From assembly GCA_025617745.1 (NCBI GenBank), contig CM046856.1:41476888-41540887 (forward strand): a DNA stretch of 64,000 nucleotides. The letters are read 5' to 3'. The position numbers were made by a program, and so were the translations under genes. The number at the start of each line of letters is the position of its first letter. Within the stretch, counting starts at the first letter, position 1. Source of the DNA: Heliocidaris erythrogramma. Lineage: Eukaryota > Echinodermata > Echinoidea > Camarodonta > Echinometridae. Under the pieces are notes generated by a model. It was not told the origin of the DNA, searched no databases, and was given only the letters and a program-made list of their open reading frames with translations. Shown here in pieces: positions 18,501 to 60,500 of this stretch.

Positions 18501-21500
18501 CATAACTGAAAGGAATCGAGCGGCAAGTTGACCTAAAGGGGCTAAAGAGATGAATTTTCAGAAATAATGGCCTGTGACCAATAGTCTCTTCCCAATATGA
18601 GAACGGAAGATGCCATTAACATGTTACACAGATTATGAGAACGGAATAACAATACGCTAGAACCTATATTCTCAGCACACAAAATTCTTCTTTTTTGTTC
18701 TCTTTCTCTCTCTCTCGTTCGCTCGCTTTGCTCGCTCTGCTCGCTCATACAATCAAGAAACTAGGCCTAGATTGTTTCTTGCAGCAAGCACCTCTTACGT
18801 CCTGCAGCAACAAGAAGCCCTAATATCATAATATTCGGGCAGTGAGGTATCCGACTATTCTCGAATTCCCCCACCCCTCCAGAAAAAGTGGTATAATTTA
18901 CCCGACAGAGTCCACATAATAAAATTTGCCACAAGAGCAGTAGTATAAAAGTATAAAAGCTGGTAGGAAAATATCACCTGACAACCCTCAAAAAAAAAAA
19001 AAAATTGGAAACGCCCCCTCCCAAGAAGGTGGTAGGGCCTAATTGAAACAATTTCGTTTTTATCGGTCAGAATCTTTTGTTGTCAGAATCTTATCTTTTG
19101 TTTTATCTTTTAATGAAAATTCAACTATAAAGTGCGCACCCCATAAGATTTCTTTGTTTAAAAAATAACACTAGAAGGGGACGCCCTTTCCTCAGCTTGC
19201 TCCACTAGAAAAAAATGCTTCGGGCATGATGGGCCTTGGGGCTTAGTGTGCACCATATACATGTAATTAGATTTCCATGTTTCAAAAATGGTCAGCGTTC
19301 CCCCATTGCCAATACATCGGTTTAGTGGCAAAATTAACCGGGGGGGCTGAGCTGCATGGGTGGACCACCCACGCCCCAAGGTGATGATGATGATGCTCTG
19401 ATAAAAATACTTTTAACATGTTGAAAATGTATAACAAAACTTTAAAATAAGTTCCTCATTTATTTTAATTTTTTTTTTGGGGGGGGGGGGGAGGGTGGGC
19501 CTACAGACCTAGTGCATCGGTTTATTACAATACACATAGAAGAAGATAAGGCAATTACCCTTTTATGAGATAAAACTATTAAAAACTTATTGTATCCACT
19601 TATTTTACCCTTTTTACGTTATTGTCGGTCTATCGAACCTTCTATCTATCGGACCTTCTTACTATCGGACCCCGTTAGACATTCGATCTATAGACCCTTC
19701 GGACGATCGGACCCTCCGCCAATTCGGTCTATAGAACCGTCTGTCTATTGGACCCTCTCGTACATTCGGTCTATCGAACCTTCTATCTATTGGGTGTCGG
19801 TCTATCGGACCCGCTAACTATCGGACCTTCTAGCTATAGGGCTGTAACCAAAAGAACTGCCATAAACTCCAGGACATTGATATGGGGAAGAGTCCCAAGA
19901 TGAGACCAATCCCCCGCGACCGTGCTGCCATTGCAATGTCCGCCCCACCCCAACCGAGATCGACGGAAGGGGGGTACGGAAGGACTTGCCTCGCGCGAGA
20001 AACGAGTCTCGTCCAACAAACGATCGTGCGACTCCGCTAGGAGAAGCCAGTCGTCCAGGTAGCAAAATAGCCGAAGGCCGCGGCGCCTCAGCGAGGCTGC
20101 CAGAACGGCTACAACCTGAGTAAAAACCCGAGGGGCTGGGCGCGGCCCGAAGGGAAGAGTGCGAAAGCGAAAAGTCTCTGAGAGGAAGGAAAACCCCCGG
20201 AAGATCGCGCAAAGCGCGATGAATGGGAATATGGAAATACGCATCCTTGAGATCTATCGAGATCGCGTAGTCCTTCCTCTTGATCAATGGGAGAATGGAG
20301 GCGAGAGTCTCCATTCGAAAATGTACTGAAGGAATGAATTTGTTTATTCTTTTCAAGTTCGGAGAAAGGGAAAGAGACGGCCGGTCTCTTACCCTTTCTA
20401 TAGCCCTGTTTTTCAACAGAGATTTGATCTCCGTTGAGGCATGAGAACGAGCCAGGGCAGACATGGGAGGTGAACGAGTTCTTATGGCCCCTCCGCGAGG
20501 CGGATAGATCTATGAAGAATCCGTCTCGCACGACGGAGAGCACAAATGCGTCCCCGGAGATGGCCACCCAAGCGGGGAGAAAGGAACGAAGTCGGCCACC
20601 TACCATGTCGAAAAGAACAAGCGCTCGGGGAAGACCATCAAAGCCTAGGCTTAGCCTTGTGCGAAGCCGTCACCTTGCCACGAGAACCTCTTGAAGAACC
20701 TCTGCCACGACGTCCCCCCTTCTGGTCTGAGCGACCGGGGGATTGGATTTGTGATATCCAAACCACTAGACGCCACCCACCCCGAAGCCCGCGGTCCAAA
20801 GCTCAACTAACACCACCCGCCCCAAAGCCGCATGCTCCGAGGCTGGCAAACCAAAATATTTCACAGCAAAGAACCGTAAAAACAAACACGAACCTTAAAG
20901 GCTCGGTGGCAAAAGGAAACACCCGCAAACACACAGATATAACTATGTGGGGCTGACCGTGAAAGAGAAAAATAATTGCCAAGAAAGGAATCAAAAATCC
21001 CTTGCAATCGGCAAGAGTGACATATAAAACACAAGAGTACTATAATCTTAGACGAATATAAGTACAGAAAAGTGCTTTTAATATGCGAAAAAGTGCGCTG
21101 AAAAGATATACAAAAAGACCTGATTTCAGGAGCGCAGTGACCCGACATCCTAACTCGACGGGGGCGAGCAAGAAAGAGGAAGATGGCCGTTGCGTGTTGC
21201 CGTGCGCGAGTGGCGAAGGGGAGAACAATAGGATTACGGGTGTGCGCACAATATTGTGACTCATTTGTGTTAAGTTCTCGAACGGGTTCGCGTAGTCAAG
21301 TGACTAGCATAATAGGTAGGTATATATGATTTATTGCAGTAAATATGCCGTTACCATGGCACCTCATCTTCCGACACATCCAAAAAATATGTCTTGCACA
21401 TCTTCCCACCAAGACCAATGTGTGTACCAAATTTCATGACTTTCGGTCAAAAACTGAGGAAGTAGTTCGATCCGCAAGGTGTTTCCTTGATTTCCTGCCA

Positions 21501-30500: not shown

Positions 30501-33500
30501 AATTTTCAATTAAAGATGCCATGTCAGAATGTTCCCTATTTGCGTGTTATGTCTATGGAAGATGATTTTTTTTCGAATCATGAATCTACATGACATCGTT
30601 CTCTGAGCAGTATCTCAGTTATTTTTGGTCTATTTCCTTCCAGATTTTAATATGTTGTAGCTGAGACTATAAGCTTTTACAAGTGTGGTCTCCAATTTTT
30701 GATCAGATGTCGGGATCATGCCCAATTTTTCAGTACAAAATGTGATTTGAGAATCCCGTTTTCGTTTACGTGTTATCTCTATGGGAAATATTCTGGTCTA
30801 TCGGTAAAGCACATGACTACCATGGTCAAGGTACCTGGTTCGATCCCCGGGGCCGATATTTTTTTTTTTTTTTTGCTTCTTTTTGCCTGTCATTTTACCA
30901 TCCTCTTCGACTATTGTAACATAAAAAATCACAAATCATGTAATAAACTGCCTTATTTTCCATGTCTATTAGAAAGTAGTGTGCAGTAGTTTGTGTACAA
31001 CCCTATGGAAATTGTGATTTCCTGTCCTGTATTAGAGCTATGGGGTTAATCTCCCAAGTATCCTGTATCATCATCATTATTACCATCACCGTCATGATCA
31101 TCATCGCTATTATTATATCATCGCCATCATCATTATATCATTATAATCATCATAATCACCATTATCATCATCACCATAATCGTTTTACAATGACCGTTAC
31201 ACATTTTGCTACATTCCTGTCCTCAGGAAGCATCTCCATTCATGGCATTCTTGACATCCTGTCTTCTGTTTAGTATTTCCCCATTAATATGATCATCCTG
31301 ATTACAATCATGATCGTGCAAATTTAAGGACAGACCACCTAATTCGTCCTCATGACGAATTAAATTCTAGTTTTTATTTATTTTATTTTTTTACTGAACA
31401 ATAGCAACCAATTCATGCTGACATACTATAAACTTGACAATGATTACAAATCAACCAATAAACCGTACAACATATTTTGTGAAAAAAAAAAAACGTGTGA
31501 ATTTAATCAATATACAGTACAAGAAAATGAATTAAGAAATATCATGTACATCAACAAAAATTTCAATAAGGAAATATTGTTTGTGATTGTATTTCACTGA
31601 TAAATTACGTTCAAGATCTTTATAAAAAAAGGAGAAAAGGAGTAATCCTGGATACCCTAACAAAGGGATAGGAGCTAAATGACTCTCTTACCTGCAAAAC
31701 TTTCACTGTAATTGGCAGTCTGTCCAGCTTCTGGAGAATCCGTAAAATCTTTTATAAAGAAAATGAAATAATAAATAGAAGGTGCAATACAGACATGAAA
31801 ATTTCATAAAATTTGGTCTTCAATGCAAGGCACGATTCTACGGTTACAGTACCAGTCAGAGATTTCAAGCTCACGTTAACACCACACAGAGCTAATCTCC
31901 CGCATCCGGCTGTCGGTAGCGTGAGTAACAAGATCGGTCACGGAGCTGCAGCAGCGAGCCTTTGAACAGCGGGTAGTGATTCGCACTCTCACGAACGTTG
32001 AATGATTCGGTCCGCTGCTTCGTACCTCGGCTTACAAATGTAACAGGTGAAAAGGCGATGATCACGTTACGTGCACGCGCGTTCCTCGATACATTGACAA
32101 AATTCCCGGATGTAAAATTGCTCAAGTGCGTCTCATTCAGTAACGTGAATGTGCAATTCAGCCCGCCTTCTTGCTGGCGTGGGTCACGAGCAGACTTGGC
32201 AGTAACATGTACCAATAATGGCACGGCTCGCTCAGATTATATTTGACTCAGCAGTGTAGCTCTGCAAATTGTTTTAAATTCAAGACAGTAATTTTTCCTC
32301 ACTTAATTATTCTGTTCTGCCACGGCTTCAAGTTTGATAATCATACTACATTTTCACTAGAAAGCATTTATGTGTATGCAGCATGGTCGCTTCTCTGATA
32401 TGCTTACTTGTTTTAATTCTATAAGAAGCTACATGTATCTACAGCTGAACCCGCCTCGGTGAAAAAAAACATCCCACATTAAACCCGCTTGCTCTTTCAT
32501 GCCAAACTACAGTTCATACTTTCTAACGGAAAATTAGTTACGAAAAGAAAGGATTTAGTCAAGGATAAAAATAAAAAGCAACAGAAGTAAAATCCGCAAA
32601 GTAGTTCGTTTCCCGTCATGATTGGCGATCTATACACACTCACACACACGCTTCATGTATTCAAGTGCATGACGCAGTTCTTCGTACATTCACCCTTTTT
32701 TTAAAACTCGGTCACGATCTTTTTAGGACAGAGCACGCGAAGCATTCATTGCCACATTTGAGACAATCGAAAAATGATGCATCATCTCTTTCATTATTTT
32801 TTTCTTTTTAGACGAGTTTATTACATCTATGATATTCATGTCAATTTTATTTTATGTTTTGTATGAGAGAAAATGTTGATAATAGGGCCTACTTGACTAC
32901 ATGTACACTGAATCTTAATAGTGACCTCGGCCTTGTGACCCTTGTCCATACAGTGATAGATTTCACACAGTCCGTGATCTTGCTGTCCTAGGTCCAGACA
33001 AGCCACGTTCCACATAAATTCAGGATCAGTTACGCCCCTGTCTTGCAGACTACTAGTATAACATCCACGTGGTCTGGATGACCACGCCCACATGTCACTC
33101 TCACTGCACACCCATGTGCTTGGATTGGTTTGTAACTTCAAAGTCCAAAGATCATTCTTCACCAACCAATAGCAAACGAGAGTTTGCTGTTAGCTTAGGT
33201 CGCCCGTATCTGTAATGTGACACCCAGCTTGGGTTCCAGCTGTCTGACAGGCTTTTTGATTTTTGCTCTGTTTTGATTTTTGCTCTGTATTAATTTGTAA
33301 ACAAACTGCCATGCGATTTGATAAGGAATGTCATTGTTTTGGTTCTGCCACATGACTTGTTGGAGGAAAGCGATCGAGATATAAAGGAGAAAGATTGTTG
33401 GGAGATGTGCAGAGAGACTGAAAGAAAGATGAGAAGAAAAGAAAATAAAATATGGTAACTAAGTGATTCATGAATGATAATGTAAAGAGAATCAATTTTT

Positions 33501-36500
33501 TCAACTGTTTGGTACTGTAAATCGGTAATAAGAGACAAGATTTGAGATTAAAAAACTTACAAAAAGAATAAATGGACAAATAATAGAATTAAAAGGGGAG
33601 AGATACATATTTTATACAATATAAATAAAACGTATCAATTTTTTCCTCCCCTCTTCCTCCTTATATGCTACTAGAATATTAGAATGTTTAGAAGGAAAAA
33701 GGGGTGATTGGAAGAAAGAAGAGAGAGAGAGGGAGAGAGTGAAAAGAGAAAGAGGGAAGCGACCGGAGAAAGGGACAGAGGGATTCAGAGAGAGGGGACT
33801 ATTAACTTTATCTTCGTGTCTATTGATTGGCTCATTTTTCTAATAAACTTGACTTTTCCGCCCATCAGGAAGTAATTTGGCGATGGAATTACTCCGCAAT
33901 CATCAACCCCAGCTCGCGAAGATAAAAACACATGTTGCTTGTTGTGGGAACCAAAGAATGTCTAGAGTGCGCGCGAAATTGGGCTTGTGACCTCATTTGT
34001 TAATCACATGTCATGACACGCGCAAAAATATGCCAGCCATGCAGCCCACAGAGGTCTGTGCTTTTTTTTTTTATCTTTCACAACGCGACGGCCGCATTGG
34101 GCGAAATGTGTATAGAATAAACAGATCGAATTTCAAAAGGGAACCAATGTGTGTTAAAGGATGAAGTTATGGTCGGGTAGAGAGAAAATGTTGGCTTGAT
34201 ATTTTTTTATGAGTTTAATGAAGATGATATTGATGACTATAATGATCATATCAGATGATCATAATTATGATGATGATCATGTGTGAGTAAACCCGGTGTT
34301 AAACTTAAATGATAAAGTTACGGTCGGGCAGGGAAGAAAATTTGGCTTGATGATATTTTTTGATGCATTGAAGAAGATAATGGTTTTGACGATATGATTA
34401 TCAAGATGATGATATAATTAGGATGATCATGATGATGATAGTATTATATCGCTTTCTCTCTCTGCCCACCGTATTCACTCTCTTTATTTAATCCCTCTCC
34501 CCTCAGTCTCTCTGCCCCTCCCCCTTCCGGTTTTTTTTACTCTCTATTTCCTTCTTTATTTTTCCCTCTCCACATCCCTCTCCCTCTCCGAGTCTCTCTC
34601 TGTCCACTCGAGCTCTCTCTCTCTCTGCCCATCGTATTCACTCTCTATATTTCATTCCCCCCTCCTCTCTCCCCTCTCTCTGCCCCTCCCCTCCCCTCTC
34701 TCTGCCCCTCCCCTCCCCTCTCTCTGCCCCTCCCCTTCCCGTTTTTTTTTTACTCTATATTTCCTTCATTTTCTATTTATCCCCTCGCCCTTTCAGATTT
34801 TCTCTCTCTCTCGCTGCCCATCATATTTAATCTCTATATTTCACCCTCTCTCCCCTCCCCTTTTACTCCCCCAGTTCTCCTCTTCCTCTCTTCGTTTTCA
34901 ATGTGTCGCACGCCTCTACTCTCTAGCTCTCATTTCATCCATTTTCCTTCTCTAATATCTTGTGGCGTACCTGGCGTTCCTTGTCAGGCGGGGTAAAAGC
35001 AAGCAATAATTATATACATAAATAATAATAGAGGTCAATAGTCACCATAATTTTCAAAAGCATTTTCCTGTCCAAAATGTTCTGCCTGGCAAACTAAAAG
35101 CTATTACAGTTGGGTGTTCTTATATTTTCTTTCCACGTTCAAATTGAATATAATTCATTCACTCTCTATAGTTTATTGATCTACTTTACATGTATTGTAA
35201 ATGTATCTCTTAGAACCCACTAAAAGAGTCCCGTTCGGGATACATTCTGTTCTTTACAAATACAAAAAAATACACAATACACCCTCATTATATAACCAAG
35301 ATACCCAGGAAGTCAATTGAAAGAGAGTTGGGGATCAATAAAACTCTCCTCGTGGACAATACCAAGGTTCACGATCATTGTTCAGTGGCTATTGGCCGGG
35401 GGTACTCATGCGATGTAGTGCCTGGGCCGGGGGATGCACGTTGTGCGGGCGATCAAAGAACAACAAACGTGCGCCGAACACGCTCAAACTTTTTGGTGTA
35501 CAATGGAATGTATAGTAAGGGTACCCTCGGATGAGGTCACTCGGGGGTCAACAAACAATCACTCGATCGAGAACTTGTTGCGTTTTGATTCCGCTGGTGA
35601 CTTTGTGTAGAATTATTTTTTCGCTTGTTTTTAATGAGCGATGTGGTATTGATCTGGTGTTTATCTTGAATTTCTACTTCTTAAAACTTTTTGTTTTCTA
35701 ACAAATAAAGTGAATCGTTTATTTATTCATGCTCTCCCTCGGTCTTTCTCTTTCTAAACAAGCTCCCATATTCTTCCCCTCCCTCTCTCTCGAACTCCTT
35801 TGTCAGCTCCCCTCTCTTCTTCTTTCCGTTATTTTCTACGCAGAAATTTTCAAACTTAGCTACATTGTAGATTAATAAAATTGATGCTCTCGGTCTCTCT
35901 TTGGCTAACTTAATTGGCTCTTCTTTGACATATCTCACTCTCTCTCTCTCTATCTTATGTTCCACTTCATTTATCTTTCATTCAATATTTATTCCTTGTC
36001 TTTCTGTTTTAAAAAGCTCAAGAACCTCATTTCATAAATATAATTCAATATAAGAACAAAATGAATGCTCTCAGTCTCTCTTAGTCTAATTTGGCTCTCT
36101 TCTTTGACATCTCTCTCTTTCTTTCTTTCTCTCTTTGTCTCTCTCTTCTGTGTCATTCCCCCCCCCCCTCTATTTTTTATTCAATATTTATTACTCTACG
36201 TATATACTGTGACTGTATGTACATGTAGCACCGATGTGAAAGAGCTTTTGTCAAAGACACTGCGTTCAACAGCTACTCCCTTTTATGCTATTTTATAAAC
36301 TTTTCTTGTCACATTATAAAGGTTTTGGTATAAAAGGAAATCAATGAAAATCAATATATGTCACGATCAGAAGTTAGACTGCTATCAACGGCATTGTATA
36401 CCGAAAATAAACTACATGTACATGTATGATGGGGTGACCATATTTCGCGCATATTCAAATTTTTATTAGAAATGTGATATTCGATACTTGATTTCTCATA

Positions 36501-39500
36501 TTCTACAATAATTTATTTATAAAGTTTTATACCAAACGGAAACCAAAATTCTGGACTAAAACTTGATTCAACAAGAACATTAATCGACGAAGAATTTCGG
36601 AAATATCGCGATCTCAAAACCCAGTGTCGGATCGCAAAACACTGAAAAAAAAAGGGCATAAAAACCACGAGACCTAAGTTCGCGCTCGTAAATTAACATC
36701 TAAGTTATCCAACATAGCGGTCCAGCAAAGGGAAGATAATTGCATCATTTGTAAGACAAAATATCATACAATCATTTGGTATCACGTTTTACCTACAACT
36801 TTGATGATATCTTCTATCAAAATGAGGATTTTTGGACCATTGTCGGTAACTTCATATTTTTCGGAAACTGACGCAAAAAGTAGCAAAATTGCCGATATTT
36901 TGTCAATTTCTTCATAATTTCTCACCCAGCTTAAAAGAAAATACAGTGCATATGTAATTTTAGCTTCCTCTATCTAATAGCGCTATCAGATTTTCGAAAT
37001 CTTTTGTAGTTTTTTAGATATTGCCCTGTGCGCGAACTTAGGTCATGCGCGAAATATGGTCACACCACCATACACCAGTACCCCAGTTCTTCGGTCATTT
37101 TCCACAATGACTTGCCTACAGTCTGTACGTGCATACTGTCTGAGCCGCGCAGCACGCGCGGAACGTGATTGCTACTACAATGTACGATAACACGTTCGAT
37201 TCGCACCACAGAAGGAGGCGATTTTCTACACCGTGATTCGCGGACGTAAACCTGTCATCGCATGGGAGATTGTTCTGAAAAGGCCGAGGGCAGCGTGATG
37301 AGCTTGAGCGTTCACGAGTTCCGGCTTAAGCTGTTCGAGCGCAACACAGCGTGGCAACGTGAGCTTGAAATCTCTGACTGGTACTGTACATGTCGTTTTT
37401 CCGAAGGTTCGTATTTCCGAAGGTTCGTTTTTCCGAAGGTTCATAATTCCGAAGGTTCGTTCTTCCGAAGGTTCGTTCTTCCGAAGGTTCGTTACTCCGA
37501 AGGTTCGTTTTTCCGAAGGTTCGTTTGTCCGAAGGTTCTTTTTTCCGAAAATGAAATAGGGTTCATAATTCCGAAAATGAAAAAGGGTTCGTATTTCCGA
37601 AAATGAAAAAGGGTTCGTATTTCCGAAAATGAAAAAGGGTTCGTATTTCCGAAAATGAAATAGGGTTCGTATTTCCGAAAATGAAAAAGGGTTCGTATTT
37701 CCGAAAATGAAAAAGGGTTCGTATTTCCGAAAATGAAATAGGGTTCATATTTCCGAAAATGAAAAAGGGTTCGTATTTCCGAAAATGAAATAGGGTTCGT
37801 ATTTCCGAAAATGAAATAGGGTTTAAATTCAGAGAATACGGCGTCAATCCGTATTTTAGATAGGGAGGAGGGGAAAGACGGCCAAGTGTAAAGATATTCA
37901 TTTCGTACTCAATAATCATAACAATGATGACAACAATAATAATAAAATCCAGAGAAATAGCCATTATTATCGTAATTCATATCAATATTATGATTATTAT
38001 TATTATGATTATTATTATTATTATAATTATTATTATCATCATTATTGTTATTATTATTAATATTATTATTATTATAATTGTTCCTATTATAATAACCAAT
38101 ATTTGTGAGCGAGCGTAGAGAGCGAGCGCCTCAGGAATACATGTTTCATTTATCATAAAATGATATTACTTCGGTGATTTAAAATACATACTGATTTATT
38201 GAAGAAAGTGAATGATCGGATTCCGGATTAAATTTCCTACAACGAAATTATTTATATAATGTATATACAGCTTTGGAAAATGAGACACACCAAAGTTCCA
38301 AGTAGATCTTTACAAGCAGAAAATGGCCACGTAATGTTTTTGAAAGGGGGAGCTAATGCCTCTTGGCAGAATATCATACTCCCCATTCGTACAATTTGCA
38401 AGCGAGTTAGAAAAAACATAAAACCCTTTTTTATTGTAATGGAAATGCAATTTCGCCATCAAAAGACAAATATAGAACATGTAATAATGAGCCATCAATA
38501 ATATTACTGAACCCTACTGCCGAATATGGAATATTTGGGCACTTCACTCTCCCTAATGAAGGGCGTTCCCTGTCCCAAACTATTCCGTTTCTAAATCTTA
38601 CGCGCTAGTGAGCAAGTAAAAAAAAAAGAGATATTGTCTATAGAATAATGATTTTAGCCGACCATCTCGCTTCCCAAAATAAAAGGATGTTCGGGCACCA
38701 CGTTGCTGGTTTCCAGCGAGCCAAACATTGACACTTTATTATCTTTAAGATGTAATTACTTCGTGAACATAAATTGTGATTAAAAAAGTATACTATGAAA
38801 AGTGTAAACTAAAAATAAGTTGGGGTCGTCCTGCTTTCCTAGCCCTCAGAGCCATCTATTACAGAGTTTGACCAACTCGGCTCCATGTAGGTAGCAGTAT
38901 GGCGCTTGTTGCTTTGTTAGGCAAGCACTAAACAAAGGAATATTCGCCATGTTGTGCCCAAATAAACCGAGTTGGCCGAAGTCTGTAATATGGCTCTGTA
39001 GATGACTCTACAAGCCCTCCCCCCGGTCCCCAAAACAACAGCAATAAAAACAACAACATAATATTACAGAGAGTTCATAAAGGAGTCACTGCTATTGATA
39101 AGTGCCCCTTTTGTCTTGTGATAAGTGCCCTATACCTATATACCTATATATATATTTAATATATTGTACGTATATACTCTGATGTCGCTTACAAATTGAG
39201 CCCTAAAGTCCACAAAAGAACCACATAGGCCTACCTAGCTCAGAGAGGCTTCCTTTATAATAGATTCCGATCGCCTACTGATATCAGCATAATGAGAGGC
39301 AGTGGAGCAGGGGGCAGTTATACAAGAATGAGCAGTGCCCTTACATCAAAACAGGAAGAAGGACAATTTCTTTCTAATTTTTTTTAAGCTCGCTGGCTAC
39401 GCTCGCTCGCATGTACCATTGTCTTTTTATCATATTAGGAAAATCGCTGCTATTCAAAATATCTTCAATATGAATAATCAGACCATTGCACTCAACTGTA

Positions 39501-45500: not shown

Positions 45501-48500
45501 CTGTTGGGTAAGACCAAAAAAAGTCGTCCTAAATATTTCATACGTGATAACATACAAACTGATGATACACAACAGATTGCAGATGAATTCAATACATATT
45601 TCATAAACTCTTGTAAACAAGCTATTACTTCTCTTCAACAGGATGATAGTCATTCAAATTTTACAGATTATTTAAATGAACCTATTTCAGGTTCTGTAGT
45701 TTTAAAGCCTATCAATGAAAACAAAATTATAAAAAATTGTAAATCACTGCATAACAGCAAAGCAAGTGGTTTTGATAATATCAGTTCTGTTATTTTGAAA
45801 GAATACATTCCATTGTTAATCCTGTAACATACATTTTTAATCAATATTTAATAACAGGAATTGCTCCTGATAAATCAAAGATAGCCAAAATTACCCCTGT
45901 ACATTAAAAAGAGGACCCTCATGTATTTGAGAACTATAGGCCAATTTCAATACTTCCAGCCTTAAAATAAAAAATATTAGAAAAATGTTTACATAATCGT
46001 TTATTCTTATTTACATACTCATAATATTATTACTAATAGCCAATACGGTTTCCGTCCTAATCACTCAACTGTGCATGCATTGATAAATTTACAGGACAGT
46101 GTTATTTCTGCTATTAAATGCAATACATTTGGGATAGGAATTATTACCTTTCAAAGGCCTTTGATATTATGGATCATAATATATAAACTGAATTATTATG
46201 GTGTCAGGGGTATTCCATTGCAATGGTCTCAAAGTTATTTAAAATATCGTTATCAAAATAAGAATTATTCTTCTGACCATTCACTCATATATTATGGTGT
46301 TCACCAGGGGTCTATCCTAGGCCTCTTCTTATTTTTGATTTATGTTAATAATATTATTAAATCATCTGAAAAGTTTATATTTACAATGTATGCAGATGAA
46401 ACATTATTTTATACTCAGAATAACGTGTCAAATTTAGAGCAGGATGTTAAAGGTAAATCCAACCTTAATAGCAAGTTCCTTTGAAAGAAAGAGGAAAAAT
46501 TAGAGAAGCAAGATTGGTGAAAGTTTGAACAAAATCGGACAAGCAATAAGAAAGTTATGAATTTTTAAAAGTTGTAATCACTATACATATGGGAATTTCA
46601 AATTGGCCGAATATGTAATGTCATTGTGATGTAGCTGTGGACAACTCCCACATTCGCTCCAACACACAAAATGACTAAAATGTCACTTTTTTCAAAATGT
46701 ATTACCTACTCAGTACGATCTTTTTCTTTCATGAGGACCTACAAAAATCTCCAATATATTTTGAGTACTGCCCCGAGGGTAAAAGCGCCTCGAAGAAAAC
46801 CGCAAATTAAGGATATTTTTGTGTACGACAAACGGGAGAGTTGTCCACAAAAATGTCACAATCGACTCACCAAATTGCCAATTTGAGATTTGCATAGATG
46901 TAGTGATCTCATTTTTCAAACATCCATAACTTTCTTAGTCCTTGTCCAATTTCTTTCAAACTTTCACCATCTTTAATTTGTAAACAAATCTTTCGGCATA
47001 TTACTCCCAGTGTTAAAGATCGTATGCTCGATCTGTAATGAAAAACACAAGTCAGAAAAAATTGGAACCAGCGGGATTCGAACCTGTCATCTACTGCTTG
47101 CCGGGCAGCGACTTAACCACCAGGCTATTCTGGTTCACGGCCAATCTTTAACACTGGGAGTAATATGCCGAAAGATTTGTTTACAAATTAAAAATTCCTC
47201 CCCAGTCAAGCTTCTTCGCTTTCACCATCTTGTTTTTCTTATTTTTCTTATTTTTCTGCTTTCACACAAATCACTTTCTGAAGCTGAAGAATTAACACAC
47301 GATTGATTTTCTCTCTCTCCTTCTACATCACGCACCTGTTTCATAATCTTGACAGTTGCCTTTCTTTCTTTTGAAAGCTAACTCTTTTCTGTTCGCTCTT
47401 TACTTTTTACCAGATTAAACAACGATGAAACGGAATCATAATAAAGGAATATTTTTGTCCTGCTCTAGTTCATTCTACCTTTAAAAAATGTTTCTAAAAG
47501 CGTCTTTCTTTTCGCCATGTCAAAGAGGTATAGAATTTGCCCCTTTCGAAGAACAAGAATTAAGTCACACCCTGCAATTTTACTTTTGTAACAAAATCAA
47601 TCCCCACTGGTGATTTTGTTACAAAATCAACCCACACTAGTGATTTTGTTACAAAATCAACCCCACTAGTGATTCTGTTACAAAATCAACATGCACTACT
47701 GATTTTGTTACAAAATCAATCCTCCTCTAGTGATTTTGTTACAAAATCAACCTCACTATTGATTCTGTTACGAAATCAATATGCACTAGTGATTTTGTTA
47801 CAAAATCAATCCTCCACTAGTGATTTTGTTACAAAATCAACCCCCACATATGATTGTTACAAAATCAATCCGCAGTACTGATTTTGTTACAAAAGCAATC
47901 TGCACTAGTGATTCTGTTACAAAATCAATCCGCAGTACTGCTTTTGTTACAAAAGCAACCTGCACTAGTGATTCTGTAACAAAATCAATCCGCAGTACTG
48001 CTTTTGTTACAAAAGCAACCCGCACTAGTGATTCTGTAACAAAATCAATCCGCAGTTACAAAAGCAACCCGCACTAGTGATTCTGTAACAAAATCAATCC
48101 GCAGTACTGATTTTGTTACAAAAGCAACCTGCAGTATTGATTCTGTTACAAAATCAATCCGCAGTACTGATTCTGTTACAAAAGCAACCTGCAGTATTGA
48201 TTCTGTTACAAAATCAATCCGCAGTACTGATTCTGTTACAAAAGCAACCTTACTAGTGATTTTGTATCCGAAATAAATAAACGATACCTACTTGCGATAC
48301 TTTTAACTCGAACTGCATGTTATCGATATCACGAAGGAAGCAATTAACAAAAATACTGGTTTTCATCCCCAAAAATTTTAGCAATTTAAAATAAAATAAA
48401 ATATTACCACATTAGAACATATTTTTAATGAAAATATGACATATCATTGCACAAAACATATTTTTATTTCCAATAAAATTAACTGAAGAAGATTTTTGGT

Positions 48501-51500
48501 GGAAAAAGTGTCTCATGTTTATGCCCATTTTCCTTGCCGTGAGAATAGGCGTCTCTTCAGTTCAACGCGTACGGCGGATCGGATCGTCGAATCTACAAGT
48601 GATACGGCACAGTATCGTACACGTGCATCTTTCGTCAGCTCAGATTTGCATCAGGTGATTAATAATGTCACCCAATAACATCCAAAGAAATTAAAATTGA
48701 ATGATGATTTATTGCTCAAAGCCTCAAACAAATTGATTGCAACCCCTACCCCTGGCACTGCTCGCCTGCCCTTGACTGAGGATTGACTGAGGATTGACCG
48801 GTCGGCCCTGCCCCACTGGCACTGCCACATGACTGGCGCTGTACTGCAACGCAGCTGACCTGAGTGTGCGGCGGCTGGGCTAGCTGGCCAGGCCCAGCGG
48901 ACTGGCGCCCTTTTTCGTTTTGTCGTGATCTCGATTTCCCTCTGATAAGTCTTAATACTAGTCTTAATTGATATCATTGTTGTGAAATAATGACGATTTA
49001 ATATAAATAATGGAAATTTTTAATAAATGCAAAACTTTGCATTGAAATCGAAAAATAACTCTGAATTCTTTGCTAAAATTACTCACTTAAGTTATAATGC
49101 ATAAACAAGAAAGATATTCGAATAAATGTTTGGCCTAATTGCTATTGTATATTATTGAAAATATCTGCCAAAATTCATGTTGAGTCATGCATCCGGAATT
49201 CCGGATATATGTCTGGAAATAATCAAACGCACTGCACTTTCTGCCTTTGTAACGAACACACAGTTTTGTATCTTTTGTCTCTCGCGAACACGTCATTCTC
49301 GATAGTGAAGTCCCGCATTTACCCACATTAAGTCAAGACCTTCAGGCTTCACAAGCGTAACTCCGAACTATATAGGAAGTGATGAATTGTCACATGATTA
49401 TGCGTGCATGCTGTGTATAATGTAGATGAACAAACTACAAAGTCAACTGGATGTCGACATCGCAGTGGGCGTCGTGTGCACATGTTGCGAGTGATGCTGC
49501 GTGGACTGCGATGTTGACCAGATAAAATTGTGTAGAGGACAAGCATAAGGCATGGGGTGAATGAACTCTACAGTTTTCGAGCAATGCCATAAATGCAGTG
49601 AATGTGTAGGTCACTACTACAACTTTTTATATTTTAAATGAATTAAATATAAAATAAATGTTTTAATTTTATGGTAATGATTATATTTGAATTTATGCTG
49701 TTGCGTGATTTGCGTGGCCTTGGCAGACAATCACAATGTCATGAATGTGATGATAAGTTTAATGTTACATTTCAATTTCAGTCTATGCCAAAGTTACGAC
49801 AGTTTTACTATGACACTTTCCCAGCGGTTTCTTGTACTATCGTACAACGCGACGTACACTACGCAACATTACATGCTGAACTTAGACTTAGACTATTACT
49901 TTTATTAGAACTTAAGACTATTAAAATCGAGATCACAACAAAACAAAAACGGGCGCCAGTCCGCTGGGCCTGGCTGGCCAGCCAGCTAGCTCACCCACCC
50001 ACCGCACCCTCAGCTCAGCTCAGCTGCGTCGCAGTGCAGCGCCAGTGGCAGTGCCAGTGGGGCAAGGCCGGTCAATCCTCAACTCAAGGGCAGGAGAGCA
50101 GTGCCAGGGGCAGGGGTGCCATCAATTTGTTTGAGGCTTTTAGCAATAAATCATTCAATTTTAATTTCTTATTGGATGAAATATTAATCATACAGACCTG
50201 ATGCAAATTTGAGCCGACGAAAGATGCATGCGTCGATACCGTAGCGTGCGTAGCATTGTACAATAGATTCGACGATCCGATCCGATCCAGGTGCTGAAGA
50301 GACGCCTATTCTCACGGCAAGGAAAATGGGCATAAACCTGAGAGTTTTTTCCACCAAAAATCTTCTTCAATTTAATTTCATTGGAAATAAAAATATACTT
50401 CAAAGATATCAATATATATATTTTTTTTTAATCAAAAATATGTTCTGTGTTAATATACTCGGTTTTGTTTTTAATTACATAAAACTTTGGGGGATGAGAA
50501 CCAATATTTTTGTTGCTTCCTCTGTGAAATCGATATCATGCAGTTGGAGTCAAAAGTATCGCCAGTACGTATCGTTCATTTATTTCGGATACAAAATCAC
50601 TAGTTATGTTGCTTTTGTAACAGAATCAATACTGCGGGTTGCTTTTGTAACAGAATCAATACTGCGGACTGATTTTGTAACAGAATCAATACTGCGGACT
50701 GATTTTGTAACAGAATCACTAACTGTGCAGCTTGCTTTTGTCACAAAATCAGTACTGCAGATTGATTTTGTAACAGAAGCACTAATGCAGGTTGCTTTTG
50801 TAACAGAATCAATGGTGGGGTTGATTTTGTAACAAAATCACTAGAGAAGGATTGATTTTGTAACAAAATCACTAGAAGTGCATGTTGATTTTGTAACAGA
50901 ATCAATGGTGGGGTTGATTTTGTAACAAAATCACTAGAGAAGGATTGATTTTGTAACAAAATCACTAGTGCATGTTGATTTTGTAACAGAGTTACTAGTG
51001 GGGTTGATTTTGTAACAAAATCAATATTGGGGGATTGAATTTGTTACAAAATCACTAGTGTGTGTTGATTTTGTAACAAAATCACCAGTGGGAATTGATT
51101 TTGTTACAAAATCAATCCCCCACTAATGATTTTGTTACAAAATCCATCCCCACTTTTGATTTTGTTACAAAAGTAAAATTGCAGGGTGATTTTGTAACAG
51201 AAGCAGTCACGGTACACTTGGCGCCCCATAATAATACGGGTATATTTAATCTAACAGAGTTATGTCCGTCCAAGAAGGGTCTGACCTTGCGTTGAATATA
51301 ACATAGGAACCAATAAGTGCTAATCGACTTAACTTATTCACGACACTCTTAGATGCTTTCTCCCCAACAAAACGGAATATTTTTTTTATTTGCTTTTGGT
51401 TTTCCTTTGTGACTACCCCCCTGCTGCCAATCTCAAAGCAAACCAAGTGTGACTCGATATCCTTCCCCTTGATATCCTCGTTTAACTGACAATACCGTTC

Positions 51501-54500
51501 GACTTTCCTATCCCAGGCTTTCTTTATGTTGGGTTCAAAGGGGACGGAGTGTTCTACAAGGACTACCCATTTACCTGGAAAATACATCTTGTCTTATGAA
51601 AATGTCAGGCGCTCATTTCATACTTGATTCGGCCTTGTGCCTGTCTTGATACTTGGCTTGTGTTTACGGCCCCCATGCACACAAGCAAAGTCTATCTCAA
51701 AGTACAAGAGTGAGGAATTGAAAGTCCTTTTGGGAGCTCGTTTTTTGCCCGCCTCGATGGTTCTTGAGCATCTTGTGTAGAGATTCACAAAATGTGTCTT
51801 CTCCCATTTGTCTATCGCGATTTTTAATGCGTTGAAGGAGTCGAACTGCACTCCTTCGCGCAGTTCCATCACTACGTCCTCACGATCCTCTGTCGATTCC
51901 TCCATTGCCATGTTTTCTGTCATGTCTGTGGGGGGTTGTATGCATGGGGGTGGGTGCGTGCCAACAGCCGGCCAGTGAAGTGTGCGCAGAGTACGAAAAT
52001 GGAGCGTATGCGCATGTCGTAAGAATAGCCGGAGAATTATTCTTACGACTCGTCGTAAGAATAGCCACTGCCATTACTTACTGACACTGTCTATAGCCTG
52101 GTAACTATTAGATGTGAGGAATAATTAGCACACAATCATGATAGGCTAATTATTATACATTATAGGGGCATTTATATCGTGAAATCTGTCCCCGGAGACA
52201 AAAAAGATCTGGGGTACAAGATTTCTTCTGACAAGCGATTAGTCTCAACACTGGGTCTGAGGCCTGCATTTATTTAGTCAGTTATAACGATTTCACATCG
52301 AGATCACATCTCTATATACATTGCAAAAACCCATAGCATGTATAGGCGGAGACAGAAAAGACGATAAGATTAAGCCTGTCTATACTTAGACAGAAATAAC
52401 CGTCTGTTATGGGGAAATCTTTAATATTTCTGACATTTCTCAACCTTCCCCATAGACTCACAGGTATATGCCATTGCCGACTGTGTAGGAATGCAGCCAA
52501 CACACATCCCATACCTAAACTGCATCACTGTGCATTTTTGGCTATATTTAAGTGAAACTCATATATTGCAGTTTACTTAAATCTAAATACTTATGTTGAA
52601 TAATAGATGATTAAAACTTACCAGTTTGTTTTGTGACCTTTGAAGAGGGTTTCCTGAAATTTTGGGTACTTTTTGTCGATAACTCCTATCGAGACTGTCC
52701 CGTCACCATTTCGTATTTTTCACGATTATGATGAAGGGAGCCCTCAGCGCTCGTAGTGGTACCGGCGCGAACGGTTCAGCGATCTCCTACGAAGACCTGG
52801 AAGCAATGGTCATATTGACCATTAGGATCATATACATGTGTGTATACTGGGTATTGGGGATACAGATGTAATTTTGTTTGAAATGGAGGTTCTTGTGGGC
52901 AAACTGATACTTAAGTATCATTCTTTAGATTTTAAGTTATCAGTTCGTTAAGATACAAAATGTAGAAAGTTATAAAAACTTACATTTACAGCCCTCTTTT
53001 TGGTACTTGTTACCCACACCTCCATACGGATGACGACTGCTCTCAATATGTTGCGCACTAGTGAGGCCGCTCTACATGGTTACGCACCGTAGATACGTAC
53101 GCAGAATGTTACGCACACAAGCTATTCTACGAAGACCTGGAAGGGCCAAACTGACGACGTAAAAAAATAAAAAATATTACGTACGTACGTAGTAATTATT
53201 ACGTACGTACGTAATATTTTTCATTTTTTTTACGTCGTCAGTTTGGCCCTTCCAGGTCTTCGTAGGAGATCGACGAACCGATCGCGCCGGTACTACTACG
53301 AGCGCTGAGGGCTCCCTTCATCATAATCGTGAAAAATACAAACTGGATGCTGACGGGACAGTCTCGATAGCAGTTATCGACAAAAAGGACCCAAAATTTC
53401 AGGAAACCCTCTTCAAACGTCACAAAACAACCTGGTATTAAAGTTTTAATCATCTATTTTTCAACATAAGTATTTGGATTTAAAGGTCCCCTGTTATGAA
53501 ATTATAATTGGTATTTTGTACATGCATCTCATCTAAATTGAAAAATCACATCCGTTTGCAATAAATACGTATCAAGATATTTTTAAAATAATATTTCCCC
53601 CAGGTATTCATGTCCAAAACAGTCTGCTAAGCTCCGCCCCCTTTTAAACCCTGAATTCTCGTTCCGCGAGCATGATTGACGTGTGACGTCACAAACCGAC
53701 ATTGCCGATGCTTGTTCACAATATTGCCTATGTATTACATGTGCAAACTAACTTGCTGTTGTGTATACCACCTCGAAAACCACCTCTAAAGCCAAGCATG
53801 CCGCAACGCTGCGTTGTTGCAGGTTGCATAACACCACAAAGGAGGGTGTCAGTCTACATTTATTCCCTAAAGACCCAAATATAAGAAGGAAATGGACCGC
53901 AAAAGTAAAATTAACTCGCGCCCATTGGAAGGGGCCGAGTGAGCACAGTGTTGTGTGCTCCGAGCACTTTTGTGCGGAGGACTTCGTCTATAGCACGGGG
54001 CTGCGTATGGCATCAAGAAGAGGCCGTCCCTGAAACAAGTTTGATCATACATGTATCAATAATATGAAATTTGGCGACTCTGAGCTTTACCTCACAAGCA
54101 CCTCTCTCAATTGGTCTTTACTATTAAAAATGATTTTTTTTTTTGTTCTTGATGAAGAAAAAGATCTTTCTCCATAAAGAGTGTTATAAAAATGTTTATC
54201 ATGGTAGAGTGGAAACTCTACTGAAACAAGTTTGATCATACATGTATCAATAATGTGAAATTTGGCGACTCTGAGCTTTACCTCACAAGCACCTCTCTCA
54301 ATTGGTCTTTACTATTAAAAATGATTTTTTTTTTGTTCTTGATGAAGAAAAAGATCTTTCTCCATAAAGAGTGTTATAAAAATGTTTATCATGGTAGAGT
54401 GGAAACTCGGTATAAAGAGGTGTGATACACCAATATTCCTGATATAACAAGGCAATATTTTGGTCTCAAGTTTTTATATTCTTTTTTTTTTAAACTGATG

Positions 54501-57500
54501 TAACGAGATTCTGGATTTAACCAGGTAATTTTAATAGTCCCAAGGACCTCGTTATACTAAGTTTCCACCGTATAATATATTGATTTTTGTTACCACCCTG
54601 AATGTGGTGAAAGTGTAACGGGCAATTTTCAACCTACAGTTACAGGTTGATTCCTACTTCTCTACATTATACATGTAGTTCATTTGACAGAAAATCTGTT
54701 TTCCAATGATTCCCTCTCTCTCTTTCACCTTTTCTTCTCTTGTGCTTTCCCTCCCTTTCTCCCTCTTTTTGCCTATAATTCTCCACTTACACACATCTTC
54801 CCTCAACTTTTTATCTCTTTTTTCCCCCAATGATTCCCTCTCTATTTCTCCCCTTGTGCTTTCCCTACATTTCTCCCTCTTTATGCCCAAAATTCTCAAC
54901 CTTTATGCCCAAAATTCTCCGCTTTCACACATCTTCCCTCAACTTTTTTTATCTCTCCCTTTTTCCCCCAATGATTCCCTCTCTCTCTATTTCTTCCCTT
55001 GTGCTTTCCCTCCATTTCTCCCTCTTTATGCCAAAATTCTCCACTTTCACACATCTTCCCTCAACTTTTTTATCTCTCCCTTTTTCCCCCAGTGATTCCC
55101 TCTCTTTTTCACTATTTCTTCTCTTGTGCTTTCTGTCTCCCTTTCTCCTTCTTTTTGCCCAATATTCTCCAATTACACACATCTCCTCTCAACTTTATCT
55201 CTTTTTTTTTCTTTTTCCATTCTGCCAATTGTTGGTTTTGATCTCATTCACGCACTCACACCTTTCTTTTCAATTGTTAGTTTCATTCACGACAAGCCTT
55301 GCATAGTAAATGTGTTTGAGCTCTTCCAGAGATGACAAAAATATTCAATTGACTTGAAATATATTATTACTTCTGGAGAAATGTAGATATAGATGTATCC
55401 AGGAAATGGTTGTCTTACAATTGAACATCAAAAATTCAATAGGAGAATGCCCACCCCCCCCCCAAAAAAAAAAAACATAACAAAACAAAACAAGCAAAAC
55501 TGATTAGCTTCCAAAGTGTGTTTCATTAACAAATTAAACAACAAATGCCATAAAAAATAACAGACCTCATATGCCATTAACAATAGAGTTATCATTCTTG
55601 ACTGAGATACATGCATCTTTACAACATCCATTACAAAAAATGCTCTGGGCAAATACTTAGATGTGAACTCAGTTACCCAATTCCAATTTTATTTCTGACA
55701 GTGAAAATGAATATTCAATTCAAAATAAGCCTCCTAGACTACTCTTTTCCTCTGATACTTGAAGCAAAAACAGCAATAACATTTTTACCACATTGTCACA
55801 GTCAGTGTAGCACACCCTCATGTAATAAACCCAACTTTCAGGAAAACTGATATCCATGTATAGGAATTAAATATCATGAAAAGATAGACTGAACAATGAC
55901 GTACTAGCATTTTTAACATTTCTTATAAACAGTTATATACATGAAAAATGTATATGCTACCTAAGTGTTATCAAGTTAACAACTAGACCAACATATATCA
56001 GTACATAATAATAAATACAATAAATCAAATGAAAGAAGAAAAAAAAAATCTGTAGAAAAAATAATGTCAATTTGAAAAGAAATATGATGTGAAGCAACAA
56101 TAATGATGATCACATGAATGACCCAATTAAATAAAAGATGTTTGCCAGTCATTAGTACTGAATATTTTTTTCTTTCAAATAATGACTTTGTGTAAATGTT
56201 TACACTTATGGAACAACAGTTCTGATACATAAATATTTTTAAAATGTTCAATTCTACTATCACCTTTGCTTAATGTTGAGATTTGTGCATGTCATATCCA
56301 AGCCCCAGTAAAAAAAAAGTATGAGAATAATGGTTGCATAGGTTAAATTAAAGTTCCACAGAGCTGCCCTCCCTTTTGATTTTTTTGCAAAGGTTAAAAA
56401 AATATATATACATACAGTAAACTTTGAAAAGAAAATACCCTAAAGAGGTAAAATGCAGGGAATATTTCCAATTTAAAAAAAATATCTTTGAAAATCTATC
56501 TTAGAACAGTAATAAAAATCTCAGTAATATGGTGGAAGTAAAACATATTTTTCTGTAAACATAGATCTTGACAAGGTGGGGGAAAAACAGCAAAATTGTA
56601 TGTAGGTCTACGCCTCTTCAAAGCCCCTGTTCTGTTCTGATCCAGGATTGAGTAAAAGAGGGGGCACAAAAATGAAAGTTTGTCAAAAGGTAGACCCGTA
56701 TTTTTCTGGTCTTGTCAGCTTCTCGAAAAGTAGCTCAGTGAAGGGGGGGGGGGGGGGGGGGGGCAAAAAAAGAAATTCGCTAAACCTTCAAAAATCGCTC
56801 AATAAGGGGTTATTGGGGTCTAGTTTCCCCTCCATACAGTAATTCCCTGACAAGCAACAAAAAAAATCATACTTCTCTTCCAAGGGGGGGGGGGGGGAGG
56901 GGAACCGGGTCAGCTGTGCCCCCTGGATCCGCCAATGGTTCTGATGGAAATGCTGCACGGATTCTTGTCACGGCACAAGATGGGAGAGGAACACGTCCTG
57001 CCCTGCCTGGCTTTCCTATAAAAGATTTTTTTTTTTAAGAGTACAAAGGAAACTATGATTAGACAACTTCAAAACAATGCACAGTGTAGTCTATGATGTA
57101 GGTGATAGTGAGGTAACTTTTACTTTGAACTTCACAAATAAACAATAGAAGATTAGCTAATAATTTAGTTGTCAACATCGCAGTGTAAAATGTTGTGATG
57201 GGGAAAGAGGAAACAAACGTTAATCTGCACATAGGACAAGAAAATACATGTACACTGCAAATAGAATAATCTTTCTCTATTTACATTAAGGCTAAAACAT
57301 TATTTTATAGAATATCGTAATATTAAATAAGGAGCCAATTTGGCATATTGCATCCAAACTGCTTTATATAATACAGGAATACTGCAGTAAGGATTAAAAC
57401 AAAAAATATGGTGTACTCACTGATTTTCAGTTGCATCCTGCCTTGCCTGTCCGCCATACTGCTGCCGATACAGATAGCTAGTAAGCAGTTTCCATCACAT

Positions 57501-60500
57501 ACCGCTCCAGACACACTGGATGAAACCCTGGGTGGAGAAGAAGCAGAAGAAGAAGAAGAAGAAGATCATATCTATTGTCAGCTATAACGGTACCTACACT
57601 TACTTAGTGTAGCAGCACAAAGAAAACAAGCAAGGTAACAGGAGAGCTAAGAGTTTTCTGGATATCAATGTTAGAATTTACTAGAATCAAACGCTACCAC
57701 CCCATGCACCAGTAAAACTGCCCAAGCGCAAGCCAAGGCAGGGTCAGCAGGCGAACAACCAAACAGCGCGGGGTGTACCCCGGCCCTGCGCACATCGAGC
57801 TCACTGCCTCGATCAGCGAAGTATCAGCTCAGCCTCTCGGGCAATTTGCAAGCGTAAACAAGATTCATAATACGTGGATATGCGTGAATTAAACTTTAAT
57901 CGGTAATTTATTATAAAAAAATAATTACCAATTGTGTCTCCCGTCGATATCCTCTCCGTTATTAAAATCAGGGACGTCTCTGTCATCATCAGAATCCGAC
58001 ATGTCTGGCTCACTCAAACATAGTATACGGCCGGGCCCCTAATTCCTCTTCAATTTCTTCTGGGACTTGATGCTCCAAATCAGATATATCTGATCCTGAA
58101 TAAGTGTCCTGCCTGAAGAAGATGATGCCATCGTTGATGTAGGATTTTGTCTTTAAAAAGCTAAAATGAAGGTCTGAAATGGCACGAAGTCGAAGGGATC
58201 TACACGAAGCTCAATAGCCATAACACACACACATCGATACTGATCCAGCTTGTGTGAGTCGAGCGTTCTGTGGGTGACGTCACATGACGTCATCGATCGC
58301 TGGACCGATTTTCCAAAATTTTTAGGGGTGTTCCCAGTTATTTTTTTATTTTCAAGGTTACAGATTAATGAATGGAATTCAAGTAATATGATTGACAGAT
58401 CTGGATTCACAGTAGAAAAGTCTATTAAATGAAGTTCCTTTGTAATTCCATAAAAGGGGACCTTTAAGTAAACTGCAATATATGAGTTTCAATTAAAGGG
58501 TCACTAAAATAAAAAAATAATTGCCCATTTTTCGTAGGAAGGTGTCATCAGGAGCCAAAAAATATCCATCACACATTTTTTTATGCATTCAGTCATATTT
58601 TATAATCATTTGAAAAGTACAGTTTTGCTGATTTACACAGTCATAAGCCCCGCCCCTAAAAAAAACCCATCGAAGCGACATCGTGATCACGTGATCTGTG
58701 ACGGATGAAAAGTAAGGGAAAATATTCCAATAACCTATACCGTGCGCGCCCGGAGGCCCCCGGCAGGCCCAGCCCGGTGCCGAGCATGATATTCACCGCA
58801 TCAACCATTTGCATTGCGTATTTTCGTGTGTTTAATTCCTCACAATAACTTTGATTTCGGACACAGTTTCATCAATAATGCCTAATCGGTGTATAGTTGC
58901 GGGCTGTAGCAAGACCCCTAAAGATGGTGTAAGCCTACATCATTTTTCTAAAGATGAAAATCTACGGAAATTGTGGGTCGCAAAGGTAAAGCTCACGCGG
59001 GCAGAGTGGCAAGGGCCGGCAAAGTGAGTGGAGTACAATCTGCAGCGATCACTTTGCCGAAGATGATTTTGAGGATCCTGGCCTGTATTCCGAATTTGGC
59101 ATGAAGAGAAGGATAAGCTAGCTAAAAGATTCAGCTATTCCAACGATCAGACTTGGAGTCAAGTCTTCCAATCTGTTTTTCAACGACAGCAGCTGCAGCA
59201 GCTTCACCCGTAGACCGAAAATTCTGTCTCTCGTTCGTTAGTTAACAACTTCTAAGACGACCTAACGAACGAGAGACAGAATTTTCGGTCTACTTCACCC
59301 GTAACTCCAGGGAGCTCCAACGCGTTGGAGCTCCCTGGAGTTACTTCACCCACGGCCCTTCACCGTATTCTGCGAGGGGTTCAAACATATAATATGGTCG
59401 AATTTCCCCTTGCCACTCGAGCTTGTTTACCTTCGGGGTCTGATAAATCATCTGATAAATCAGAGTTCGTATCTGCATGGCTCAGAAAAGTCCTCCAACT
59501 CGGAATCGCGGGCACTTTTCCTCTCTCTATATAAGTTACTCGAATTCAGCCAAAATCTAAGTCAGTACTAACGTACTATGTAAAGCGAAGTAAAAAAAAA
59601 ACCGTGAGTGAAATAAACAAAACAAAAGCGTTCACTAGTCGCTATATACGAGGGGAACATAGTCACTGCCGTACTACAGATGTGTAGGACAGTGTACATA
59701 GAGACGCATAAAACGGCTGTGCACGCGTTTATTACCATTGCAAAACTTTCGTTCGGCAAGCTCAGATGGATGAGAACATTGTTCAAAAGAAAAGCTAAAA
59801 AAAAAACAAGAGCTGTATATTTGGGTAAAATCGTTTTCTGATCTTGTAGAAAATATATTGCCAATGATTATTCACTCCTAAGATTATATTGATTAATTTC
59901 CTTTTTTCATAAATTGTCCGTTGAACAGAGGGGTCAAATACCGCATTTTGTGTACAATATTATATGCTGCAGCCTGCAGATCTTGTGCCTCTTACTTTTC
60001 ATACGTCACTTGGAGGTTAGCCAATCAGCTCATGAGTTTTAAGGAACGGTCCCAAAACCTCTACCTTTCCCCCTTTTTCGCCAAAACGAGACATAATTTG
60101 GACAATCGATCGGCAGATTCGTGATTAGAAGGCAAAACTACATGGAAAGAGCACCCATTTTTTCTCTAATTTAGTCAACCTTTAAATATAGCCAAAAATG
60201 CACAGTGATGCAGTTTAGGTATGGGATGTGTGTTGGCTGCGTTACTACACAGTCGGCAATGGCGTGTACCTATGAGTGAATATGACCATTGCTTGCTGAT
60301 GTGCCCATAGACAGACGGGACGACCATGTATCACCAACAAGGTGGACGATCAGCCGACCTGAGCCTTAGGTCGCGTTGCCGTTACGAGTACGCCACTGAA
60401 TACATGCTACACACACAAACACACAGAGAACCACTTCCGGTTCCGGATATGGCCGTCCACACACTACGCGATATGTGATCATTCAGTCTCTATCGAGTCT

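Follow-up and report, generated by a model that had tools for sequence, protein, structure and literature searches.

The locus treated here, a pair of adjacent transposon-like elements (A and B) in the sea urchin Heliocidaris erythrogramma, has its closest described relatives in three papers. Kojima and Bao 2022 (PMC9587614) describe KolX as a protein with the ballast fold and a regular second protein, beside the DDE transposase, of the Kol0 lineage, which includes Kolobok-1_XT, and they conclude that P2X7 was derived from KolX. Hikosaka and Konishi 2018 (PMC6004289) report that Kolobok transposases carry DDE, THAP and H2CH motifs, and that the T2 miniature inverted-repeat transposable elements (T2-MITEs) of Xenopus combine TTAA with AGGRR ends. 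Rump et al. 2020 (PMC7016195) follow the P2X7 ballast domain, nanor and 'ZCD' proteins across Metazoa and treat them as genes; two Ixodes open reading frames in that work join the ballast domain to a TolA or a 'TAHP' domain, and we read 'TAHP' as THAP.

The window, that is, the whole stretch of 64,000 nucleotides analysed, covers positions 41476888–41540887 of contig C4 in a source genome that was searched as 1.06 Gb in 26 contigs. Within it, A and B very probably each represent a decayed copy from a separate Kolobok family of DNA transposons, both families being of the two-protein (Kol0) type. They resemble the Kol0 lineage in their TTAA target copies, their 5'-RR ends and a second protein with a ballast domain, but differ from it in that the copies here have no detectable catalytic core (PMC9587614). 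In addition, the KolX gene lies here on the strand opposite to THAP, whereas the words 'convergent' and 'opposite' are absent from the main text of PMC9587614, no convergent gene layout was found stated in those of its passages that were read, and the word THAP has 0 occurrences in its text. When it illustrates the spread of Kol0, the same paper lists vertebrates, annelids, cnidarians and sponges, and not echinoderms. With the XKol elements and T2-MITEs of Xenopus the present elements share THAP-bearing transposases, TTAA, AGG-starting ends and short non-autonomous members, while 'KolX' is absent from the main text of PMC6004289. The proteins of Rump et al. 2020 have the same cysteine-rich domain as the KolX described here and are found across invertebrates, yet the main text of PMC7016195 contains neither 'transpos' nor 'Kolobok' (0 occurrences of each) and counts one or few (<10) genes per species against 150 reported exon-wise matches in this genome. 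The sequence-only reading that preceded this analysis knew of no description of the pairing; one exists, as Kojima and Bao 2022 give both the DDE transposase with KolX and the P2X7 conclusion. The observation itself is real and well explained, its central idea is already in print, and the additions of the present analysis are the convergent layout, a natural empty-site control and Kol0-type families in an echinoderm. This echinoderm sequence evidence that ballast-type proteins belong to TTAA transposons fits the published origin of the P2X7 tail, and it suggests that invertebrate genes annotated as 'P2X purinoceptor 7-like' may often be transposon genes.

Boundaries and empty target sites of A and B

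Element A (53484–58463, plus strand) is apparently a non-autonomous, decayed Kolobok DNA transposon of the Kol0 type, delimited by inverted ends, an empty site and a second copy at another locus (L028). Element B (58497–60181, plus strand), which is short and apparently belongs to a non-autonomous Kolobok family, is delimited by inverted ends, an empty site and further copies. Copies of TTAA border A at 53480–53483 and 58464–58467, and B at 58493–58496 and 60182–60185. Both elements have inverted ends of the AGG type, with the terminal sequence AGGTCCCC in A and AGGGTCACTAAA / AGGTTGACTAAA in B, and the outermost bases of each element are AG...CT, in agreement with the 5'-RR...YY-3' termini of the Kolobok superfamily. 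Among the 11,919 TTAA pairs tested in the window, the inverted ends of A ranked 6th (22/28) and those of B 7th (20/28). The five pairs ranked above them match 23 to 28 of 28 bases, and two of these five are formed by the inverted repeat into which A and B are inserted.

Arm-to-arm alignment of this older inverted repeat placed its left arm at 52456–52803 (plus strand) and its right arm, broken by A and B, at 53249–60277 (minus strand). Once A, B and one TTAA copy for each were taken out of the right arm, 330 of 348 aligned bases were identical between the arms, with two 4-base gaps. The left arm has a single TTAA at 52577–52580 where the right arm holds A, and a single TTAA at 52548–52551 where it holds B; together with TTAA on both sides of each element, this gives the 4-bp target duplication expected of the Kolobok superfamily. 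The two target sites are 29 bp apart. Because the left arm keeps both empty TTAA sites, A and B are two separate insertions into a pre-existing arm, and the inverted repeat is older than either, unless both were cleanly excised from the left arm. The THAP stretches of A and B share 66.7% over 144 alignment columns; as no significant DNA match was shared elsewhere, A and B were treated as different families. The initial observation of two TTAA elements with different ends is confirmed, with TTAA copies, inverted ends and an empty site for each.

THAP exons and a KolX-type gene on the opposite strand

THAP domains were scored with Pfam PF05485 (cut-off 23.9 bits). The THAP exon of the A transposase gene (53798–54033, plus strand, start codon at 53798) is frameshifted and matched at E 2.2e-9 and 38.4 bits. 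That of B (58878–59148, plus strand, start codon at 58878) is also frameshifted, contains an AIPTIR box and matched in two frames, one covering profile positions 1–62 over the cut-off (E 7.8e-6, 27.0 bits) and the other positions 46–86 under it (E 1.8e-4, 22.7 bits). Both elements thus score over the cut-off for the THAP domain seen in transposases of the Kolobok superfamily, and the start codons lie 314 bp (A) and 381 bp (B) inside the left ends, in line with the 310–380 bp at which the sequence-only reading had placed a plus-strand THAP finger. When the THAP region of A was compared with long database proteins, nothing was found at E <= 0.001 among 20 candidates.

On the minus strand of A we found remnants of a ballast-type gene. 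Pieces of this strand, joined with X spacers, matched one protein, P0002, at E 2.1e-22 (six candidates, 5.8-billion-sequence database). In tblastn, P0002 residues 17–78, 121–157 and 176–198 were collinear along the minus strand of A (E values near 9e-10, 1e-12 and 9e-9), the start codon and last ten residues being added by position. A profile of P0002 and 26 relatives gave 8.7e-8 and 8.4e-6 for two A pieces, which ranked above all others among the 3302 open stretches of the window; P0002 was itself found through the A pieces, so that its later tblastn and profile scores against A are not independent of the first search.

The KolX exon 1 remnant (57928–58131, minus strand, start codon at 58131; two tblastn pieces, E 8.8e-10) contains an SDISDL stretch, RPY(T)MFE followed by a frameshift, and PDFNN.EDIDG. 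The RPY..FEP motif had been taken as similar to the P2X7 C-terminus, a reading that fails, since the motif precedes the PF20478 match (P0002 residues 70–203); in A the frameshift splits it. The exon 2 remnant (57420–57534, minus strand; two pieces, E 1.07e-12) reads HPGF.PVCL..YVMETAY in one frame and YRQQYGGQARQDATENQ in another; nothing of its first half was found in A, and a longer exon 2 is present in locus L029 at 3006–3257. The exon 3 remnant (56939–57007, minus strand, E 8.6e-9) reads GRAGRVPLPSCAVTRIRAAFPSE and has 22 of 23 residues as in P0002. Its end is split by a later insertion (56642–56937, no strand assigned) between 8-bp repeats at 56634–56641 and 56938–56945; the sequences matching A 56641 and A 56939 directly adjoin each other in L028, L029 and both units of L030, where the insertion is missing. 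Beyond it, the last KolX residues, SEQNRGFEEA, are followed by a stop (56611–56640, minus strand), with 8 of 10 residues as in P0002; tblastn alone gave E 3.5 here and the piece was placed by position. Gaps between exons and splice-like borders, both read by eye, lead us to infer that KolX is a spliced gene.

Not found in A were P0002 residues 158–175 and 79–120, the latter stretch including the first cysteine cluster and holding six of the seven cysteines that alignments lead us to take as zinc ligands. Single A pieces reached PF20478 at E 0.011 (a 27-residue exon 3 piece) and 0.087, both under the cut-off, and Pfam gave no match on the whole joined A peptide. Used as a PDB query, the joined pieces returned one match, which was not P2X7 (E 0.62).

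P0002 carries PF20478 (E 1.4e-16, residues 70–203), and a search with it returned 85 proteins including P0002 itself, of which 80 were marked PF20478. Its named relatives come from echinoderms, molluscs, corals, nemerteans and one fish; among the ten best organism-named matches, nine are from Lytechinus, Diadema, Acanthaster or Asterias, and one is from an anchovy. At E <= 1, a profile of 25 of the 85 proteins matched six PDB sequences, namely four P2X7 entries (best E 8.1e-11) and a pair of malaria proteins (E 0.7 and 0.86). The AlphaFold2 prediction of P0002 had a mean predicted local distance difference test (pLDDT) score of 74, with residues 17–59 below 50. Foldseek with this predicted fold gave 25 PDB matches at E <= 10, with P2X7 at ranks 1–14, one of them at E <= 0.001, and template modelling (TM) scores of 0.38–0.42 normalised to query length. 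The KolX pattern matched 11, 24 and 22 stretches in viral contigs and prokaryote genome contigs, none of which was confirmed.

In B, the trace of a second gene consists of an exon-1-like motif and an acidic stretch (SDLSDDLSDPEG / IRPYYMFEPLAE, two frames; 59377–59482, minus strand), the ballast domain itself being absent, and tblastn gave E 6.3. The pattern PYx(1,2)[FY]EP, which was picked after the motif had been sighted, was met in 2 of 1500 simulated B sequences, which makes a chance origin unlikely, and has a single occurrence in the window. In the rows printed, L028 and L015 have B copies in which the RPYYMFEP piece recurs, and the acidic piece recurs in those of L028, L010 and L015; as these copies are 92–95% identical to B, they give the motif no independent support. 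A share of B in the second gene is likely, if thinly evidenced, and B is best seen as a relative that lost internal sequence while the first exon of either gene stayed in place. A P2X7-like minus-strand segment, claimed for both elements, therefore stands for A through its homology to P0002, while B has the exon-1-like motif only.

Further copies in the genome

Genome-wide, 150 matches to PF20478 were reported, with 150 of 463 first-look candidates scored; matching was exon by exon, so that this is no gene count. Twenty loci of 10 kb were taken round the matches ranked 1–20 and 23, the rank 18 match lying inside the rank 11 locus and ranks 21 and 22 not being used as centres. L029 and L030 were chosen later for a match pattern like that of L028, so this choice was not random.

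A second TTAA-bounded A-type copy occupies L028:3040–7645 on contig C2, 85–91% identical to A in the main aligned pieces and matching at 19 of 24 end bases. It has THAP pieces at element positions 322–575, in two frames and pointing one way, and on the other strand KolX residues 1–78, 79–107 and 157–206 in pieces. L029, on the same chromosome as the window (C4), holds KolX residues 79–157 and 157–206 as two stretches together with one element end, and keeps CSCSGGC...CC plus a later DC and PSC. L030, on C15, contains a pair of A-type units spaced 5.5 kb apart, and in each of them THAP pieces lie on one strand and KolX exon 3 (157–206) on the other; one left end with TTAA was seen, and the two units are probably one insertion that was duplicated. 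The units, at 1–2321 and 5482–7839, share an identical KolX exon 3 and perhaps reflect tandem duplication, and a third PF20478 match lies another 5.5 kb further on.

Across the five A-type units (window A, L028, L029 and both L030 units), four have pieces of both genes on opposite strands, all five have at least one KolX exon, and none has a complete KolX. The THAP and KolX pieces point toward each other in A, L028 and L030, and KolX with the ballast-type domain typical of the Kol0 lineage is present as exon remnants in A and as pieces in L028, L029 and L030. Exon 3 is open in the four units other than A, where comparison of synonymous and non-synonymous changes (dN/dS; 6 pairs, 4 units) gave 0 synonymous and 0 to 6 non-synonymous changes. 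Copies of B were found at L028:728–2400 (94.8% identical), L010:1427–3121 (92.5%) and L015:1–1569 (95.3%, its left end lying beyond the locus).

A separate repeated unit, which we call family C, is shared by 10 of the 20 loci (L012–L018 and L023–L025) and covers their PF20478 match. It is TTAA-bounded in L012 (2292–8702) and L016 (3998–7765), with inverted ends that begin AGGCGGTCCATCG or GGGCGGTCCATCG; L015 and L018 have one such end each. Nine of the 20 loci were left without a family assignment. In several family C copies the ballast domain can be read openly, and dN/dS for family C KolX ranged from 0.44 to 0.91 (21 pairs, 7 copies, frameshifted stretches included). Pfam found no THAP on the strand opposite KolX in L012 and L016, a scan of one strand in two copies. 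Further A- and B-type copies and the TTAA-bounded family C support the idea that a TTAA element family encodes the ballast-like protein as its second product, which helps to explain why that protein is present in so many copies; the copy number is high and is plausibly owed in good part to transposons. The earlier wording had been 'cargo or second protein'; the second alternative stands, and cargo is less likely given that KolX is a regular second protein of the Kol0 lineage (PMC9587614).

Two loci on different contigs, L026 and L027, share about 6.7 kb of sequence at 98.6–99.7% identity; the shared sequence falls into two pieces and surrounds a ballast-type gene of two stretches.

Competing readings, proposed mechanism and neighbouring repeats

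Several results weigh against a Kol0-type assignment of A and B. Pfam detected no catalytic (DDE) transposase domain in six frames each of A and B, although whether it holds a model for this core was not checked, and none on the THAP strand of the L028 A-type copy; accordingly, no DDD/E core with the C/DxxH signature of Kolobok was seen in A, B or the L028 THAP strand by Pfam, a scan made with no Kolobok transposase as query. The ends read AGGTC, AGGGT or AGGTT, against the AGGRR of Xenopus T2 elements (PMC6004289). On the minus strand of A, with stops masked, Pfam reported no ballast match, and the evidence for B is a short motif that gains no support from the KolX profile (E 5.4). Every further A-type copy is broken or partial: in L028 THAP scores 19.4 bits against the cut-off of 23.9 (Pfam E 0.0019), KolX exons 1 and 2 are frameshifted and residues 108–156 were not found; L029 shows neither a THAP match nor KolX exon 1; and the L030 units have no KolX exons 1 and 2. 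Since no DDE domain was detected, Kolobok membership rests on the ends, THAP and KolX, and A and B are filed as decayed non-autonomous relatives, not as complete elements. The profile check suggested with the sequence-only reading thus returned THAP in A and B, but no DDE domain and PF20478 under its cut-off in A, and every copy seen was decayed.

In the mechanism that we propose, a full element would have a transposase gene beginning with its THAP DNA-binding domain near the left end, and a spliced KolX gene on the other strand, beginning near the right end, whose small protein product would share its zinc-binding fold with the ballast domain of P2X7. The transposase would cut and paste the element into TTAA, which would be duplicated. 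Catalysis, as suggested by the Kolobok literature, would be due to a DDE transposase, which some other copy would have to supply, Pfam having detected no such domain in A or B. That KolX helps the assembly of the transposition complex is a guess.

A more far-reaching version makes KolX a selfish module that may aid the movement of its own element while borrowing the catalytic protein, with the P2X7 tail as a domesticated transposition helper. It starts from TTAA-bounded families such as C, which keep a ballast-type gene and have no detectable transposase. We considered this unlikely and now hold it to be more doubtful still, because no A-type copy keeps all KolX exons and because the family C scan for THAP covered one strand in two copies.

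Less probable again is an origin of A and B from piggyBac-type elements, with the THAP exon and the ballast-like gene as later acquisitions. The TTAA target is common to piggyBac, yet Pfam found no piggyBac domain in A or B, the 5'-AG with which their ends start fits the 5'-RR stated for Kolobok as opposed to piggyBac (PMC9587614), and THAP is stated for Kolobok transposases (PMC6004289). In addition, piggyBac versions of the ballast protein are without most of the seven cysteines (PMC9587614), whereas the CSCSGGC...CC, DC and PSC of L029 are kept.

Equally improbable is that the ballast-like exons belong to a host gene at the landing site, P2X7-like or nanor-like, or were captured once as cargo by A. 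Ballast-type genes are indeed annotated as ordinary genes in echinoderms, but the empty site fixes both ends of A, and the exons fall between them; A-type copies on two other chromosomes (L028, L030) and elsewhere on the same one (L029) have matching exons; another TTAA-bounded family has its own ballast version; and Kol0 elements of other animals also bear the gene (PMC9587614).

Least likely of all is chance similarity of short peptides homologous to nothing, which the B motif with its profile E-value of 5.4 and the absence of an over-cut-off Pfam ballast domain in A might suggest if taken alone, but which is refuted for A by significant matches at three places in the correct order and by the search that led from the A pieces, through a database of 5.8 billion sequences, to a protein with PF20478 (E 2.1e-22). 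The piggyBac, host-gene and chance readings were all rejected.

The window contains other repeats. An inverted duplication of 5.56 kb (3156–8718 and 31845–37388) is 99.55% identical between copies that have about 23 kb between them. A TTAA-bounded unit of 5.6 kb at 15680–21273, with 28 of 28 inverted bases identical after TTAA, is perhaps a DIRS-like retrotransposon; it has a weak reverse-transcriptase match under the cut-off (minus strand, 19817–20509, E 4.5e-4). Scans of the window for tRNA and Rfam families returned none. A reverse-transcriptase fragment lies at 45981–46481 (plus strand, RVT_1 E 6.5e-11). Some 0.8 kb at 60650–61449 make up another unit bounded by TTAA; its inverted ends, which agree at 26 of the first 28 bases after TTAA, are long and were compared over 80 bases. 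Finally, minisatellite arrays with a unit of about 30 bases occupy 47584–48278 and 50578–51208 and match each other in inverted orientation.

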